Assembly (NCBI GenBank): GCA_934757245.1
Contig: CAKVLH010000014.1
Coordinates: 1-50,180, forward strand
Direction of reading: 5' to 3'
Length of the DNA: 50,180 nucleotides
Source of the DNA: an uncultured Candidatus Melainabacteria bacterium
GTDB lineage: Bacteria; Cyanobacteriota; Vampirovibrionia; Gastranaerophilales; Gastranaerophilaceae
Shown here: piece by piece, positions 18,430 to 42,173 of the stretch
How the letters are laid out: each line of letters starts with the position of its first letter
How positions within the stretch are numbered: the first letter of the stretch is position 1
Translations under genes and position numbers: made by a program
Notes under the pieces: model-generated
What the model was told of the DNA's origin: nothing
The model's input: only the letters and a program-made list of their open reading frames with translations
Databases searched by the model: none

Positions 18430-18540
18430 TGTTGCGTTTTTCTTTTGGGGGATAAGCCCCCACCCTAGCCCTCCCCCGAGGAGAGGGAATAACCGAGACG
18501 CGTTTTTTAATTGTAGGTTAGGCTTTCAGCCCAACAATAA
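18430..18540. repeat. REP-like palindromes between murC and murB
   Basis: A GGGGG...CCCCC hairpin (18447-18461) runs into CACCCTAGCCCTCCCCC and GGAGAGGG (18461-18488), the degenerate core of the repeat family seen at 35-39 kb, with the usual trailing GAATAACCGAGACG. A second small palindrome (GTTAGGCTTTCAGCCCAAC, about 18517-18535) follows. The 18370-18410 stretch holds several short GTGAATAAG repeats. Confidence 0.75.
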
Positions 18541-35363: not shown

Positions 35364-35493
35364 CACCTCACCCTAGCCCTCTCCTGTAAGGAGAGGGAAT
35401 GACCGAGACTTGCTAACTTATATAAAATTAAAAGTTAAAGCGAACATCTTTAGCATTTTCCCTCTCCTTACAGGAGAGGGCTAGGGTGAGGTG
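35364..35493. repeat. Paired inverted REP-like palindromes
   Basis: Arms 35364-35399 and 35458-35493 are 36-base perfect inverted repeats. Each contains CACCTCACCCTAGCCC and a CCCTCTCCT-GTA-AGGAGAGGG hairpin. The 58 bases between them are AT-rich without coding signs. The right-hand arm is also the left end of the DUF559 element. Confidence 0.9.
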
Positions 35494-35523
35494 AAGACAA
35501 AAAAAATAAACATTAAGAAAACA

Positions 35524-35552
35524 TTGCGTCAATCAACAAAAAATGTTAAACT
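35524..35552 (+). promoter_or_regulatory. Predicted leaderless promoter of the DUF559 gene
   Basis: TTGCGT (35524-35529), 17 bases, TGT-TAAACT (-10 at 35547-35552), then six bases to the ATG at 35559. No ribosome site. Confidence 0.45.
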
Positions 35553-35558
35553 TTCAAT

Positions 35559-35906
35559 ATGGATAAACAATTCCAAATAGCTCGAAAATTACGTAAAAAT
35601 TCAACTAAAGAAGAACGCATACTATGGCAACTTTTAAGAAATCGGCAATTTTTGGGACTTAAATTCAAACGTCAATTTCCCATTGGAAATTATGTAGTAG
35701 ATTTCGTTTGCGAAGAAAAAAAATTAATAATAGAACTTGACGGTGGACAACATAATGAGGCGAAGAATATACATTTAGACCGCGTTAGAACTGAATTTTT
35801 AGAAAGCAAAGGTTATACCGTTGTTAGATTTTGGAACAAAGATATTAATCTTAATATAAGTGGTGTGTATAGCTATTTATTAGATTTCGTTGAGAAGTTA
35901 AAGTAA
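35559..35906 (+). CDS. DUF559 (Vsr-like) endonuclease-domain protein
   Basis: 115 residues, the typical DUF559 length. Starts QIARKLRKNSTKEERILWQLLRN, then FKRQFPIGNYVVDFVC, LIIELDGGQH and YTVVRFWNKDI. DUF559 shares the PD-(D/E)XK fold with Vsr mismatch nucleases; the putative metal ligands are the Asp of VVDF and the acidic residues of IELDG. It is framed by inverted palindromic repeats and stands alone between secA and a convergent pilin-like gene. The natural substrate of DUF559 proteins is unknown. Confidence 0.85.
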   Translation: MDKQFQIARKLRKNSTKEERILWQLLRNRQFLGLKFKRQFPIGNYVVDFVCEEKKLIIELDGGQHNEAKNIHLDRVRTEFLESKGYTVVRFWNKDINLNISGVYSYLLDFVEKLK

Positions 35907-35914
35907 AAATAGAA

Positions 35915-35954
35915 TCTTCACCTCACCCTAACCCTCTCCTGTAAGGAGAGGGAA
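35915..35954 (+). repeat. REP-like palindrome downstream of DUF559
   Basis: Forward copy with CACCTCACCCTAACCC and CCCTCTCCT-GTA-AGGAGAGGG. It differs from the copies at 35364 and 35458 by one base in the shared core. It ends ten bases before the stop of the pilin-like gene. Confidence 0.9.
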
Positions 35955-35963
35955 GGTGTACAA

Positions 35964-37379
35964 CTATTTTGCTTTTTTCTCAATTTTTGTTAAGCGTTTT
36001 TCGAACTCAGCGTTTTGAGCTTGCAATTCTTCTATCAATTTTTGTTGTGCCTCTATCACTTGTTGTTGCTCATCAACTTTCCTTGATAAAGAAGTTACAT
36101 TCTCAACAATTTCTGCAATCTTAGTATCAAGTTCCTTGACTGCATTGATTACCGCATAAAACATATCTTCCATACGGATTCTCAAATATCCGTCTTCACC
36201 TTTTGTTACAGCATCTGGAAATACTTTTTGCAAATCTTGCGCCATAACACCGACATGTGGAGTTTTTGCTTCGTCTTTTTTAAATGTGTAATGGAAGAAA
36301 TCTAGCTTCTTAAGCTCGTCCAAACCCGCGGTATATACTTCGCCAACATTCTTCAAACGACGGTCAGATATAACAGTTTTATTGAAGTAATTATCACGAC
36401 TGTACGACACAATTAAAGAGGGAAACTTCCCTGCACCATTATTTTGAGCAGTGATATACCCAGAGTTTGCTCCTGCCGTTGTCCAAAGAGCATCCTTTCC
36501 AAGACGTCTTGTTCCTATAGCTGCAATATTTCCAACAATTAAATTTCCCGGAATATACACGGTAGTGCTATCATCTCCGAGAACAATCTGATTACTTTCA
36601 GTAGCCGTGGCATTATATCCTATTGCAACAGAGTGGGAGCCTGTTGCTTGAGTACGATCTCCAATCGCGATAGCATTACCACTAAGGGCACTCGCATACG
36701 CAGAAGAACCTATGGCAATCGCACCAGCACTTCCTACCGAAGATTTAGCAGTTGCATTGTGGCCGATTGCAATATTATATCCGTCAGCGAGGGATGGTCG
36801 AGAATTTCTTTCAGTAGAAGCACCACTACCAATTGCAATACTGCCGTCTTTACCAGCAGTAGCTACGCCTATTACAATAGAATTATTTGCAGTAGCAGTA
36901 GCACCTTTACCTATAGCAACAATACTGTCTAAAGTATCAGTTATATTTTGTTCAGAACCAAACGCCACAGAGTTGTTTGGAACTGTCTGATTTGATATAC
37001 CGATTCTACCATTTGCTGGGTCGGCTGTGATGCCTAATGGAACTGCATTTCCATTACCAAAAGCTATATGAGAAGCAGTATTACCGGAATCAATAAAAAG
37101 TCTGGTTGGAGCGGTTAAAGACGCAGGAGTCGAGGTTGCACCAATAATTACAGGCGCATTGTCATTCCCGTTTAAGTTATAAGCAATACTGCTATTCAAA
37201 CCTGTAAACACCCAAGGACTGTCGCCGTTTCCTGCACTGCGCGCCATTTTCTTGGTTACCATTGGAGCTGTTGCAGCTGCCAAAATCGCAACGATTAGCA
37301 ATACAACCATCATTTCCATAAGTGAAAATGCATTTTTAAAATCTTTATATCTTTCAATCCTCGCCCAATTGCTATTCAC
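35964..37379 (-). CDS. Prepilin / YadA-head-like / peptidase S74 fusion protein
   Basis: The GTG at 37379 is preferred: it has a GAGGAAG site four bases away, while the more upstream ATG (37415) lies inside the predicted -10 box. Length 471. Residues 1-45 are a class III prepilin signal, leader ending NA and cleavage before FSLMEMMVVLLIVAILAAA. About residues 125-270 carry about nine 14-residue repeats of the type SVAIGYNATA, IAIGDRTQA, as in the beta-roll head of trimeric adhesins (YadA). Residues about 325-415 are a peptidase S74 / intramolecular chaperone domain with the SDRRLK motif (catalytic Ser338 and Lys343), GVMAQDLQKVFPDAV, followed by a coiled coil. S74 domains trimerise phage tail spikes and cleave themselves off. 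A surface adhesin on a pilus-like anchor is the likely reading. Confidence 0.82.
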   Translation of the reverse strand: MNSNWARIERYKDFKNAFSLMEMMVVLLIVAILAAATAPMVTKKMARSAGNGDSPWVFTGLNSSIAYNLNGNDNAPVIIGATSTPASLTAPTRLFIDSGNTASHIAFGNGNAVPLGITADPANGRIGISNQTVPNNSVAFGSEQNITDTLDSIVAIGKGATATANNSIVIGVATAGKDGSIAIGSGASTERNSRPSLADGYNIAIGHNATAKSSVGSAGAIAIGSSAYASALSGNAIAIGDRTQATGSHSVAIGYNATATESNQIVLGDDSTTVYIPGNLIVGNIAAIGTRRLGKDALWTTAGANSGYITAQNNGAGKFPSLIVSYSRDNYFNKTVISDRRLKNVGEVYTAGLDELKKLDFFHYTFKKDEAKTPHVGVMAQDLQKVFPDAVTKGEDGYLRIRMEDMFYAVINAVKELDTKIAEIVENVTSLSRKVDEQQQVIEAQQKLIEELQAQNAEFEKRLTKIEKKAK

Positions 37380-37413
37380 AGGCTTCCTCGCTTTCTTATT
37401 AATTCGGACATAC

Positions 37414-37443
37414 ATTATAGTTTAATAATATCATATTTTGCAA
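37414..37443 (-). promoter_or_regulatory. Predicted promoter of the pilin/S74 gene
   Basis: Minus strand TTGCAA (37438-37443), 18 bases, TATAAT (37414-37419); start near 37407, upstream of the GTG at 37379. Confidence 0.65.
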
Positions 37444-37469: not shown

Positions 37470-37756
37470 TCACCTCATCCTAGCCTTGTCTTATTCGAGC
37501 GAGGGAATGAAATTGGCGACGAAGCACTTCAGAATACAAATGAGGAGTTAATAAAACCCTCTCCCGCCTTCGGCACCCTCTCCATGTCAAATGGATAAAA
37601 GGAGAGGGAGTAGCATGCGTTTTATTGAACGTCGCAAGCGTGTCCCCTCTCCCTTGGGGGAGTTTTCTGCTTCACTTCCAAGCTAGTAGTTGTGCTTACT
37701 CATTTGGAAGTGTAGTGTAAAGGGAGAGGGTTTTATTAACATACACCTCATCCTAT
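37470..37756. repeat. Composite REP-like repeat cluster
   Basis: Fills the gene-free stretch 37444-37760. A degenerate copy lies at 37470-37507 (CACCTCATCCTAGCC ... GCGAGGGAATGA). A 194-base unit at 37547-37740 has 19-base perfect inverted ends (GTTAATAAAACCCTCTCCC). Inside it are a CCCTCTCC/GGAGAGGG pair (37576-37583, 37601-37608), a CACTTCCAA/TTGGAAGTG pair (37674-37682, 37704-37712) and a reversed copy with a GAACGTCGCAAGCGTG tail. A fragment CACCTCATCCTA follows at 37744-37755. No coding signs. Confidence 0.85.
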
Positions 37757-38165: not shown

Positions 38166-41100
38166 ATGTTATTAAATTTTATTAAAGTCGATTTTCGCAC
38201 TAAAATTTTAGTCGATAAATATTTAGAGCTTATATCTGTCGGTGTAAAACCGTCAGAAATACTGGTGCTTGTCCAAAATTCAACTCTAAAAAAACAATTT
38301 AGCGACAAAGTTTTAGAAAAAATTAGTGTTAACGCTATCGAAAAATTAAACATACATTCTTTTTTTTCAATCGTCTATAATACACTGATTGAAAATTGGT
38401 GTTTTATAGAAAATGCAATTCCTGCAGATAAACATTTTATCCTCCCAAACCTTGTTGGTTTAGAAGTTTCACAATTTTTGTTAAAAGATATTTTAAAGAA
38501 AGTTGAAGTAAAAGGTTATAATTCAAAAAAATCATTGCTTCACCAAATTTTTAGAAGATATTCGCTAATCGTTCAGAATAATTTAACAAATGATGAGGTT
38601 AGAGAGCGTTCAAAAGTTTTGAAAGAATCGTTTGCTGATGATGCGGAAATTATTATAAAAAGATTATTGTCTTCAACTCTAAAAAGCAGAAGTTTAGACT
38701 ATTTGAGACAAACGCTTATTTTTAATCATGTTTATAAACACACGGATTATTTTAAGAATATTAAATATTTGCTTGTTGATGATGCGGATGAAATGACGCC
38801 GGTTTGTTTTGATTTTATCAAATATTTAAAACCGCAACTGAATGATTGGATTATTTGTTTTGACTCCCTCGGTTCAAGCAGGTGTGGGTATTTGAGTGCG
38901 GATACGTCGATTGAGTGTAAGTTGAAGAGTGTGTTTGAGGAAGGTGTTATCAATGATTATAAAACCCTCTCCCAAGGAGAGGGAACGTGCGAGGACGTTC
39001 AATTAACTTCGCAATCTTCACCTCACCCTAACCCTCTCCTCAAAGGAGAGGGAATGCGCGAAGGCGTTCTTTCCGATACTACCCCACCCCCTAACCCCCT
39101 CCCTCAAGGGGCGGGGGAACGCGCTTTCGATGTTCAAGATTTGCAAAATACTTTTCCGCAAGGTGAAATTATTTTCTCCAACATATTAGAAAACAAACAT
39201 GAAAGATTGGAAAATTTTACATTAACCTCTCTATCCAAACGTGCGGAAATACTGGATTACACGATTGAAAAGATACAAAATTTATTCAAAAAAAACATCT
39301 TGCCAAAAGATATTACGATAATAACTCCACTACAAGATGACATGCTTCATTTTACTTTGAGAGAAAATCTAAAATGCAATCTTCTTTTTCTATCAGGCAG
39401 CGAAAAACTTATTGATAATCAACTCGTAAAAGCAAGTTTGAACATCCTGAAACTTATGCTGGGCTTGGAAATTACAGAGATGGATTTGCGCGTAATTTTA
39501 TCAGATTATGTTGGAATTCCGATTAAATATTGCCACAAGATTTTAGAAGTTTACAAACAATCAGGACTTCTTCCTGTCATGAAACTCGATTTTTATGATG
39601 ATAAGTATCAAAAATTTTATGAAGCATTTGAAAGCGTAAAAGAAAAAGTTGAAAACGGCAAATGCAAATTATCAAATGCAGTCTATACAATGTTCTATAG
39701 CGTTGTAAGTTACGTTGATGAAACAAAGATTAACAAGTTTAATTTCTTCATCAAACAATTGAAAGATTTTGAAAGTGTTTTGGGTTGGAAAAACGTAATA
39801 GAACGCGCTAATGAAATTATTATTCAAATTGAAAATTCAATTATTGCAGAAAAACCAAGTTCCACTTTAGATATTAAAGATGATGATTTAATCGTTGCAA
39901 CACCTCAAAAAATTATTGATAATAAGATTTCAACTAAATATCAATTTTGGCTGGATGTTTCTCACTCAGATTGGGTTAAAAACGATACCGGACCTTTGTA
40001 TAATGCTTGGGTAATGCAAGCAGATTGGACAAAAGACGAATACACAATTGAAGATGATATCTTTTTATCAAAACAAAAAACTGCAAGAATTTTGAGAAAG
40101 TTATTATTGCTTGCTGAAAATCATATTTGGGCTTGTTCAAGTTTATTTGACCCAACCGGTGCTGAAAATTTAGGCGGAATTGAAGATTATTTAGCAGGTG
40201 GCGATGATAACGAACCAATCGAAGATAAAAAAGTTTTCAAAATTATTCCGCGTGATGATCAAAAACCGGTTTTAGAATATAAAAAAGGCTCAATGGCAAT
40301 TTCTGCTGTCCCCGGGGCAGGAAAAACCACAATTTTACTTGCACTTATTATAAAGCTTATTAATCGTGGAGTTGTTCCAACAAATATTTTTGTTTTAACT
40401 TATATGGACTCTGCTGCCAGAAACTTTAGAGAGCGTATCAAAAACATGTGTCCAAATTCAACGCTTTTGCCAAACATAAGCACTATTCACGGACTGGCTT
40501 TAAAAATTTTGAAAGAAAATTCAAATTATGAAAGATTAAATTTGTCGTCTGATTTTGACATTTGCGATGATACGCAAAGAATGAGAATAATTAAAGGAAT
40601 TGTGGGTAAATTTACGAAAACCGAAATGGAAGAATTTGACTGCGCAATTTCCGTTCTTAAGCTACAAGAAGGTAATATTGACACACCGTCTTCCGATAAA
40701 AAAATTGAAAAATTTAAAACATTTTTTAAAGAATATCAAGCTCAATTGAGAGAAGGAAATTTGATTGATTATGATGATATTTTGATTATGTCAGTTAAAT
40801 TGCTTGAACAAAATTCTGATATATTAGAATACTATCAAAATATTTGCGAATATATTATTGAAGACGAAGCGCAAGACTCTTCAGGAGTTCAACAAAAATT
40901 AATCGGACTTTTAAGCGGAAAACATAAAAATTTGATTCGTTGCGGTGATATTAACCAAGCAATTACTACAACTTTTTCTAACGCAGACGTGGAAGGTTTT
41001 AGAGCGTTTATTAAAAACGCAGATACAACAGTAGAAATGAACCACTCTCAGCGTTGTACGCAAGATGTAATGACTTTAGCAAATAATCTTGTAGATTTCG

Positions 41101-42173
41101 GAAACGGAATTTTACCGAAAGCATTTTTCACAAGTTATATGCAAGGAGTTAAAGGTAAAAATCCTGAAAGTGAAAATGCAATTTATTCTAAAATTTTTGA
41201 AAACGCGTTTGCAGAAAGAAATTTTGTATTAAAAGAAATAAAAAATATTTTGACAAGAAATAAAGATGCGACTATCGGAATTTTATTGAGGAACAATTTT
41301 CAAGTTGCGAATTGGACGCATTTTATTAATGATGCCGGTTTAAAAACTATCACCAGAAGCGAATCTTTAGGTCAAAAAGGAGTGTTTAATACAATTTATT
41401 CAATCCTTAAATTTATTCAAAATCCTTTTGATAACGAAGTTTTGGTTTCAACTTATGAAACACTTTCAGACTTAGGATTTTATCGTCAAAGATTGCAGTT
41501 GGAAATCAGAAATTCTGAAACTCCGTTTATTGAAAAAGATGGTGATGATATAGAATCAACAAGCCTTTCGCAATTTTTGTGGGATATGCAATATTGGCTA
41601 AACTCATCAACACTTCCATTAGAAGAATTAGTTATAAGAATTGGGTTATTTTATTACACAAGTGATATTGAAAAATCAAACGTGTATTTAATTGCAACGC
41701 TTGTAAAACGACTTAACGCCAGCGGGAAATTCGATTTAACATTGCAAAGATTAGAAGAACTATCTAAAAAGCCGTCTTTAAGCGGTTTTAAATTCTTCTC
41801 GGAAGAAGAGGATAAAGACGCCGCAAAAGGCAAAGTTCAAATAATGACTCTGCATAAATCTAAGGGTGATGAGTTTGAATATGTATTTTTACCTGAGATG
41901 GCTGAAAAAAATCTTTCAATTGACGTAAATCAAGCAAAACTCAAAGCCTCATCTTTATTTATGGAAGAAGTTAAAGCGTTTAATCCAAAATACAAGCGCA
42001 AATCAGAATTAGAGCTCAAAGAATTTAATTCTGAAGAAAGCTTAAGACTTTTGTATGTTGCGATTACTCGTGCGCAAAAGAAATTGTTTATCACAACATC
42101 AGCAAAAGCTAAAGGTTGGGGAAATAAAGAAGTCGAACAAACTCCAAGCGTTGTGTTTACTGGTGTGTTGTAG
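38166..42173 (+). CDS. Large SF1 helicase: degenerate N-terminal half, UvrD-like C-terminal half
   Basis: 1335 residues, about twice UvrD. The C-terminal half (from about 700) has all SF1A motifs: PGAGKTT at 716-722, LTYMDSAARNF, STIHGLAL, the Walker B-like EDEAQDS, CGDINQAI, MNHSQR, MTLHKSKGDEFEYVF, and LLYVAITRAQKKL. The N-terminal half mirrors the same order without a Walker A loop: FRTKILVDKYLEL, ILVLVQNS, NIHSFFSIVY, LLVDDADEMTP, CFDSLGSSRCGYLSAD. It thus looks like an inactivated helicase copy, like AddB. Residues about 266-320 are translated REP-like repeats. No nuclease domain follows motif VI. An extended -10 (TGATAAAAT) lies close upstream; AAGGAG is only one base from the ATG. Confidence 0.85.
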   Translation: MLLNFIKVDFRTKILVDKYLELISVGVKPSEILVLVQNSTLKKQFSDKVLEKISVNAIEKLNIHSFFSIVYNTLIENWCFIENAIPADKHFILPNLVGLEVSQFLLKDILKKVEVKGYNSKKSLLHQIFRRYSLIVQNNLTNDEVRERSKVLKESFADDAEIIIKRLLSSTLKSRSLDYLRQTLIFNHVYKHTDYFKNIKYLLVDDADEMTPVCFDFIKYLKPQLNDWIICFDSLGSSRCGYLSADTSIECKLKSVFEEGVINDYKTLSQGEGTCEDVQLTSQSSPHPNPLLKGEGMREGVLSDTTPPPNPLPQGAGERAFDVQDLQNTFPQGEIIFSNILENKHERLENFTLTSLSKRAEILDYTIEKIQNLFKKNILPKDITIITPLQDDMLHFTLRENLKCNLLFLSGSEKLIDNQLVKASLNILKLMLGLEITEMDLRVILSDYVGIPIKYCHKILEVYKQSGLLPVMKLDFYDDKYQKFYEAFESVKEKVENGKCKLSNAVYTMFYSVVSYVDETKINKFNFFIKQLKDFESVLGWKNVIERANEIIIQIENSIIAEKPSSTLDIKDDDLIVATPQKIIDNKISTKYQFWLDVSHSDWVKNDTGPLYNAWVMQADWTKDEYTIEDDIFLSKQKTARILRKLLLLAENHIWACSSLFDPTGAENLGGIEDYLAGGDDNEPIEDKKVFKIIPRDDQKPVLEYKKGSMAISAVPGAGKTTILLALIIKLINRGVVPTNIFVLTYMDSAARNFRERIKNMCPNSTLLPNISTIHGLALKILKENSNYERLNLSSDFDICDDTQRMRIIKGIVGKFTKTEMEEFDCAISVLKLQEGNIDTPSSDKKIEKFKTFFKEYQAQLREGNLIDYDDILIMSVKLLEQNSDILEYYQNICEYIIEDEAQDSSGVQQKLIGLLSGKHKNLIRCGDINQAITTTFSNADVEGFRAFIKNADTTVEMNHSQRCTQDVMTLANNLVDFGNGILPKAFFTSYMQGVKGKNPESENAIYSKIFENAFAERNFVLKEIKNILTRNKDATIGILLRNNFQVANWTHFINDAGLKTITRSESLGQKGVFNTIYSILKFIQNPFDNEVLVSTYETLSDLGFYRQRLQLEIRNSETPFIEKDGDDIESTSLSQFLWDMQYWLNSSTLPLEELVIRIGLFYYTSDIEKSNVYLIATLVKRLNASGKFDLTLQRLEELSKKPSLSGFKFFSEEEDKDAAKGKVQIMTLHKSKGDEFEYVFLPEMAEKNLSIDVNQAKLKASSLFMEEVKAFNPKYKRKSELELKEFNSEESLRLLYVAITRAQKKLFITTSAKAKGWGNKEVEQTPSVVFTGVL
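38961..39125. repeat. Three REP-like palindromes inside the helicase coding region
   Basis: Copy 1 at 38961-38993 (ACCCTCTCCC-AAG-GAGAGGG then GTGCGAGGACGTTCAAT). Copy 2 at 39015-39054 differs from the DUF559-flanking copy at two loop bases. Copy 3 at 39080-39120 (ACCCCACCCCCTAACCCC, CTCCCTCAAGGGGCGGGGGAA). All are read through in frame, giving peptides such as SPHPNPLLKGEG and PPPNPLPQGAGE. Confidence 0.9.

Follow-up and report, generated by a model that had tools for sequence, protein, structure and literature searches.

A stretch of 50,180 nucleotides from an uncultured Candidatus Melainabacteria bacterium of the Gastranaerophilaceae (contig CAKVLH010000014.1; the whole stretch is called the window below) carries a small gene of the DUF559 family enclosed by two inverted copies of a short hairpin repeat (Table 1). 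The predicted protein matches the Pfam family DUF559 (PF04480) with E=1.4e-40, has its closest relatives, among those found, in Gastranaerophilales, and carries the conserved residues E19, D48, E59, H65, and D74. Both the Vsr-like fold and the order of conserved E..D..H..D residues are present in DUF559, and of 196 sequences all but three (193) retain the candidate catalytic residues. The left arm and the reverse complement of the right arm are identical at 39 of 40 bases, which confirms, coordinates included, the inverted palindromes around a 115-residue gene that were described in a sequence-only reading of the same DNA. We propose that the window probably carries a mobile unit resembling those of repetitive extragenic palindromic (REP) sequences, in which a gene for a Vsr-like endonuclease (DUF559) lies between inverted triplex-type hairpins and which is driven by that endonuclease.

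The repeat itself is a known one. A text search of the literature reveals that its letters match the intrastrand triplex motif (TM), earlier named BoxC and PIT, and the window arms have the same G/C-rich stem and mirror-related tail as the BoxC/PIT/TM copies of Escherichia coli and other bacteria. A tail that mirrors the stem of the same arm at seven or more of eight positions is found in 33% of 264 arms, as compared with 11% for the stem of another locus and 2% for shuffled tails. The half-site CCCTCTCC occurs 16 times in the window, counting both strands (mean of 0.22 and maximum of 1 in 100 shuffles). Complete short-loop CTCTCC hairpins number five, counting both arms, and are joined by one long-loop hairpin, one G+C-richer variant, and one degenerate copy, such that the "ten or so further copies" of the earlier reading were an overcount; the in-frame hairpins at 38960–39117, within a helicase open reading frame (ORF), are additional to what that reading had observed. 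An Rfam search of the window at the gathering threshold returned zero matches, and a structured RNA was rejected as the identity of the repeat on this basis. BoxC/PIT/TM repeats have been on record in E. coli since the 1990s and are found in more than 260 bacterial genomes, their means of spread being described as not known (PMC4666352); that paper reports inverted pairs and instability, intrastrand triplexes formed in vitro by the E. coli motif, and that mobility-providing activities were never found around the E. coli sites. Its main text has zero occurrences of DUF559, nuclease, or Vsr, and we found no link between DUF559 and these repeats in the open-licence literature of PubMed Central, although a subscription paper could hold one.

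To place the window unit in the context of other DUF559 genes, we analyzed three sets of loci for flanking inverted repeats. These comprise the 89 best-scoring PF04480 loci (29 + 60) of 200 Pseudomonadota genomes, with L087 and weaker matches left out; 108 Cyanobacteriota loci (28 + 80) among the matches listed, 106 of them usable; and the best 80 loci of the closest relatives, 77 of them usable, a set that overlaps the Cyanobacteriota one. At an inverted-repeat score threshold of 40, which was our choice (counts were also made at 36–50), repeats flank 51 of 89, 70 of 106, and 44 of 77 loci, respectively, while the corresponding shuffles give 0/445, 0/530, and 0/385; for the closest relatives, control ORFs of 90 to 400 residues on the same contigs give 6/700. 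Most DUF559 genes in each set are thus flanked, which bears out the link to palindromes in relatives that had been proposed from the window alone. A sequence-blind comparison of the flanks of 29 Pseudomonadota loci finds inverted repeats (score of at least 36) at 14 of them, and at none of the 29 when the flanks are shifted by 750 bases. Mis-paired flanks were rejected as a null, since the repeat is common to different loci.

The geometry of the unit, with tails inward and stems outside, recurs in both phyla. Of 282 purine/pyrimidine hairpins lying nearest the gene (within 200 nucleotides), 279 have the tail facing it; 108 of 195 loci have a tail-inward hairpin on both sides, and one side is reversed in 1 + 1 more. 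The hairpins lie at a median distance of 45 nucleotides from the edge of the DUF559 domain. The stem letters differ among loci (CCCTCTCC, CCTCCCC, CCTTCTCCC, and CCTTCCCCC) while the layout stays nearly constant, and repeats of a second class (class II) carry an additional stem interposed between the first one and the tail. Among the 62 distinct class II inner sequences listed, 43 keep a stem of at least four pairs (5.5% when shuffled), with 20 different arms. Close pairs of hairpins without a gene have their tails inward in 42 of the 51 listed, all 42 falling among the 47 pairs from Pseudomonadota. One locus, L109, has DUF559 between long (~135 nucleotides), almost identical inverted repeats and is perhaps a young unit.

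Enzyme and repeat are also paired at the level of genomes and lineages. With "strong DUF559" defined as a best E ≤1e-10, and with Fisher tests that treat genomes as independent, at least four class I copies are found in 24 of 47 Pseudomonadota genomes with strong DUF559 and in 12 of 153 without (200 genomes; odds ratio [OR] of 12.3, p 6e-10). Among 194 Cyanobacteriota genomes, 47 of 96 with and 5 of 98 without strong DUF559 are repeat-rich (OR 17.8, p 9e-13), and the repeat is therefore not equally common where the gene is lacking, in agreement with the earlier proposal. For class II, DUF559 is present in 17 of the 19 genomes with any copy and in all 15 with at least five copies, out of 200 genomes (p 5e-11). 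The Y1_Tnp domain of RAYT transposases has an OR of 0.94 with class I repeats, and of 0.36 and 0.22 with class II repeats (p 0.048 and 0.012); RAYT was accordingly rejected as a hidden general driver. Vsr was likewise set aside as a driver (OR 1.8, p 0.19 at four or more copies), with a value of 2.5 (p 0.049) at ten or more. The precedent of RAYT transposases invoked in the sequence-only reading thus holds for the inverted palindromes around an enzyme gene and fails for any association of Y1_Tnp with the repeat. A repeat variant, CCCATCCC..CCTTCCCCC, flanks the DUF559 gene of one genome (G027) and is multicopy there only (six copies), six other genomes having one copy each. Mapped onto a DUF559 tree, stem type requires 34 changes (within-phylum shuffles: mean of 56.5, minimum of 48 in 200 shuffles; 35 "other" stems were dropped before this count), and repeat class requires 8 (shuffled mean of 15.3, minimum of 12), the class I/II labels covering 99 of 186 proteins. 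The co-occurrence, variant, and tree patterns are the marks of a cognate enzyme–repeat pair.

DUF559 units are also recurrently found in frame within other genes. In the window, three hairpins are translated within a UvrD-type helicase gene. Alignment of 24 of the 120 listed homologues reveals that this site is empty in some (e.g., P0161, P0195, and P0201) and occupied in other homologues by one hairpin or two that are translated, and helicase proteins 92 to 96% identical to that of the window differ in the hairpins present; in P0190, DUF559 itself lies in frame between hairpins (the same insert in G478 is counted once). A DNA-level search of 30 genomes, 29 with a match, finds alternative states at this one site: 12 genomes are empty (96–129 bases between anchors), one has repeats only (309 bases), and two have DUF559 (699 and 1011 bases, the former being the P0190 insert). 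These states cover 15 genomes, the anchor motif being not found in the other 14 of 29.

Over all loci, the reading frame extends more than 60 residues past the DUF559 domain in 99 of 298 (redundancy included) and stays open for more than 60 residues on both sides in 34 of 197. Pfam searches of 30 of the 99 long-frame loci identify host domains in 27, and L263 is additionally the helicase. Hosts around the insert include PriA, RecJ, HydF, PrmA, GHMP kinase, a class I tRNA synthetase, and MmeI/ISP-type methylases; in HsdM, MurB, and radical SAM proteins, DUF559 is at the end, not in the middle, and it is terminal in the host frame in L061, L115, L110, L063, and L136. Alignment to PDB structures locates the insert within HydF (16 residues of 5lad against 207), within PriA, and within a Val/Ile-type synthetase; PDB sequence matches with E near 1 were considered chance and not used. 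No intein splicing domains were listed in the 30 frames scanned with Pfam, and group I intron or intein residence was not encountered, the window gene being free-standing and the window without an Rfam match. The frames are open through the insert, and translation rather than RNA splicing is therefore favored. Repeated in-frame units are found in PriA between the 3′-DNA-binding domain and the helicase core (L135, L137, L154, L223, and L092), in Gastranaerophilales and in an alphaproteobacterial metagenome-assembled genome. A single open frame at L067:9872-11602 has two DUF559 domains with a GHMP kinase domain between them. Cyanobacterial units lie in frame in MmeI/Eco57I/Type ISP restriction-methylase genes (L242, L259, L267, L285, L288, L294, L297, L298, and L299), an apparent favorite among the frames scanned.

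Table 1 Features of the DUF559 unit and further hairpin copies in the window
Feature	Positions	Strand	Remarks
Extra hairpin outside left arm	35364..35399	+	36-base perfect inverted match to 35458-35493
Left terminal hairpin	35458..35497	-	Outer stem CCCTCTCC..GGAGAGGG, inner tail GGGTGAGG toward gene; TM/BoxC/PIT type
DUF559 endonuclease-like gene	35559..35906	+	115 residues; Vsr-like PD-(D/E)XK fold
Right terminal hairpin	35915..35954	+	Inner tail CTCACCC, outer stem; 39/40 match to left arm
Cluster of partial or longer-loop copies between ORFs	37557..37730		Long-loop hairpin at 37576-37608
UvrD-type helicase ORF, insertion target gene	38166..42173	+	1335 residues
Two hairpin copies, in frame in helicase ORF	38960..39054	+	Translated SPHPNPLLKGEG type
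Third hairpin, G+C-richer variant, in frame in helicase ORF	39082..39117	+	Translated TPPPNPLPQGAGE type
Isolated degenerate copy	18469..18488		

Next to the unit, positions 35964–37415 of the minus strand encode a 483-residue protein with, by reading, a prepilin-like N terminus and a C-terminal region like an intramolecular chaperone.

Two intergenic places of E. coli were also inspected. In strain K-12, a TM copy separates fabI from the DUF559 gene ycjD, and degenerate copies lie beside the ycjD end. Between sapF and fabI (L082, L320, and L321), some strains have ycjD accompanied by TM copies and others an efflux operon, and the common sequence restarts just beyond the TM on the fabI side. 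The ycjD region was rejected as a presence/absence case, the whole region being present in 3333 of 5426 genomes; in two inspected strains without it, the efflux operon stands there with a TM near the border, which represents a rearrangement and no clean insertion. The E. coli control genome of the 200-genome search lacks a PF04480 match despite the presence of ycjD in K-12, and is presumably a strain without this gene. The interval between ypfG and tkt (L355–L359 and L324) holds a TM unit of ~70 bp in ATCC 25922 and strain 300444 and, in K-12, O18, no107, and O157, a REP-like sequence; it was thus rejected as an empty site, being occupied in all six strains. The eef operon has been located at the sapF–fabI place (PMC12817139).

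Taken together, the flanking, control-ORF, and co-occurrence results support the suggestion of the sequence-only reading that this is a repeat mobilization unit involving DUF559, and we strongly infer that the unit is mobile. We further infer that the hairpins are cut or processed by DUF559 and do not simply carry it. DUF559 would recognize its cognate hairpin and nick or cut it, probably when folded in single-stranded DNA, and repair or replication would then place a copy of the unit, or of a hairpin pair alone, elsewhere. The gene-less tails-inward pairs may be the non-autonomous form of the element, and the gene-less hairpins around the window unit may be non-autonomous derivatives or remnants.

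Several observations weigh against this interpretation. No cleavage, binding, or movement was observed in these sequence analyses. At the window unit, a target-site duplication is not visible by eye, and a clean DNA-level empty site was not found; the 20 closest secA loci were rejected as its empty site, since they share secA alone, with neither DUF559 nor an S74-type gene adjoining. The extra hairpin outside the left arm has the orientation opposite to that arm, with tails outward. Across loci, 38 of 89 in Pseudomonadota and 36 of 106 in Cyanobacteriota fall below the inverted-repeat threshold, 23 of 195 have no purine/pyrimidine hairpin on either side, and none of the four close gene-less pairs listed from Cyanobacteriota has its tails inward. 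A gonococcal DUF559 gene (L083) has related GAGAG-type hairpins both upstream and downstream, in direct and not inverted order. Among repeat-rich genomes, 12 of 36 in Pseudomonadota and 5 of 52 in Cyanobacteriota lack strong DUF559, the p values given above are nominal because genomes are not independent, and the distribution of stem types could reflect the ancestry of the genomes or their base composition, for which within-phylum shuffling is a partial control. The gonococcal locus has more hairpin copies downstream. Five genomes with many class I repeats and no strong DUF559 (G040, G148, G169, G207, and G159) may reflect relics, incomplete assemblies, or another driver.

Three other explanations were considered. 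The first, which we regard as unlikely, is homing: DUF559 would be a free-standing Vsr-like (EDxHD) homing endonuclease with the hairpins, spread by something else, as its landing sites, such that it cuts hairpins elsewhere and is then copied in by recombination via the repeat sequence. This leaves unexplained both the enrichment of repeats in DUF559 genomes and the repeat variants that track DUF559 lineages, and long extensions for DNA binding are present in the known EDxHD enzyme (PMC3943268), whereas the window protein is a bare domain. The second, which we find more doubtful still, is that another enzyme mobilizes the hairpins and DUF559 is cargo, kept for mismatch repair or defense, for example. 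The repeat-rich genomes without DUF559 fit this explanation, as does a Caulobacter DUF559 protein functionally tied to a solitary cytosine methyltransferase (PMC12907096); a Caulobacter DUF559 protein is required for an SOS response in a methyltransferase mutant, which we count in favor of our main interpretation. The short distance between hairpin and domain leaves no space for another gene in the unit, neither Y1_Tnp nor Vsr has a comparable association with the repeat (the Vsr value at ten or more copies being borderline), and the candidate catalytic residues are kept in 34 of 34 copies with an open frame to either side, all of which argue against a passenger. Finally, it is highly improbable that the hairpins act as terminators or operators for the DUF559 gene without moving with it, as their closeness to the gene might suggest, given the many copies away from DUF559 and within ORFs and the lack of promoter or terminator activity of BoxC/PIT in earlier work (PMC4666352).

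A mobile unit driven by DUF559 names a candidate enzyme for the spread of BoxC/PIT/triplex repeats, and since this candidate is present in E. coli K-12 as ycjD, the means of spread is directly testable. It also proposes a role for DUF559, a large family of "unknown function," and may bear on the instability of triplex-motif sites. Elements that enter essential genes in frame, with no sign of splicing, represent a route to domain gain. We lean slightly toward a broader proposal, namely that this is a bacterial mobile element of a new class, lacking any known transposase, in which a Vsr-like endonuclease of ~110 residues recognizes its own triplex-type hairpin ends and spreads them along with itself. 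If true, intergenic DNA would be colonized as well as essential genes, the latter in frame and with DUF559 translated as a tolerated extra domain, and one system would explain BoxC/PIT/triplex and further intergenic repeat families in Pseudomonadota and Cyanobacteriota.

Among known systems, the BoxC/PIT/TM repeats themselves share stem and mirror tail with the window arms and are described (PMC4666352) with neither a mobility activity nearby in E. coli nor a link to DUF559. Rickettsia palindromic elements, compared by description only, are also palindromic inserts in frame in many unrelated genes, but they carry a short peptide ORF (PMC10969869) where DUF559 units carry a whole nuclease domain, its conserved residues included. 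Vsr-like EDxHD homing endonucleases such as I-Bth0305I share the fold and the order of conserved acidic and His residues, whereas the DUF559 unit is without an intron, intein, or DNA-binding extension and has terminal hairpins. The class II repeat, CCCTCATCCG-stem2-CACCTTCTCCC, may resemble RIME, of the alphaproteobacterial RIME/CIR intergenic elements; no text with the RIME sequence was found. REP hairpins bear a GTAG or CGTC tag at their foot (PMC3733652), and both window arms lack these tetranucleotides. In organization, the unit is like the REP/REPIN-RAYT (TnpA-REP) systems, which also have short palindromes inverted on both sides of a small nuclease gene, gene-less inverted pairs, and a repeat variant matched to the enzyme lineage. 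They differ in that RAYT is an HUH/Y1 enzyme, which uses a tyrosine, and the enzyme of the window unit is a PF04480 protein with the Vsr-like PD-(D/E)XK fold of metal-dependent hydrolysis, and in that DUF559 units insert in frame in essential genes. DUF559 would thus occupy the position that RAYT has in REP systems and use a different chemistry: the unit works like REP/RAYT but is no member of it and, if the role of the enzyme is proven, arguably represents a new class.
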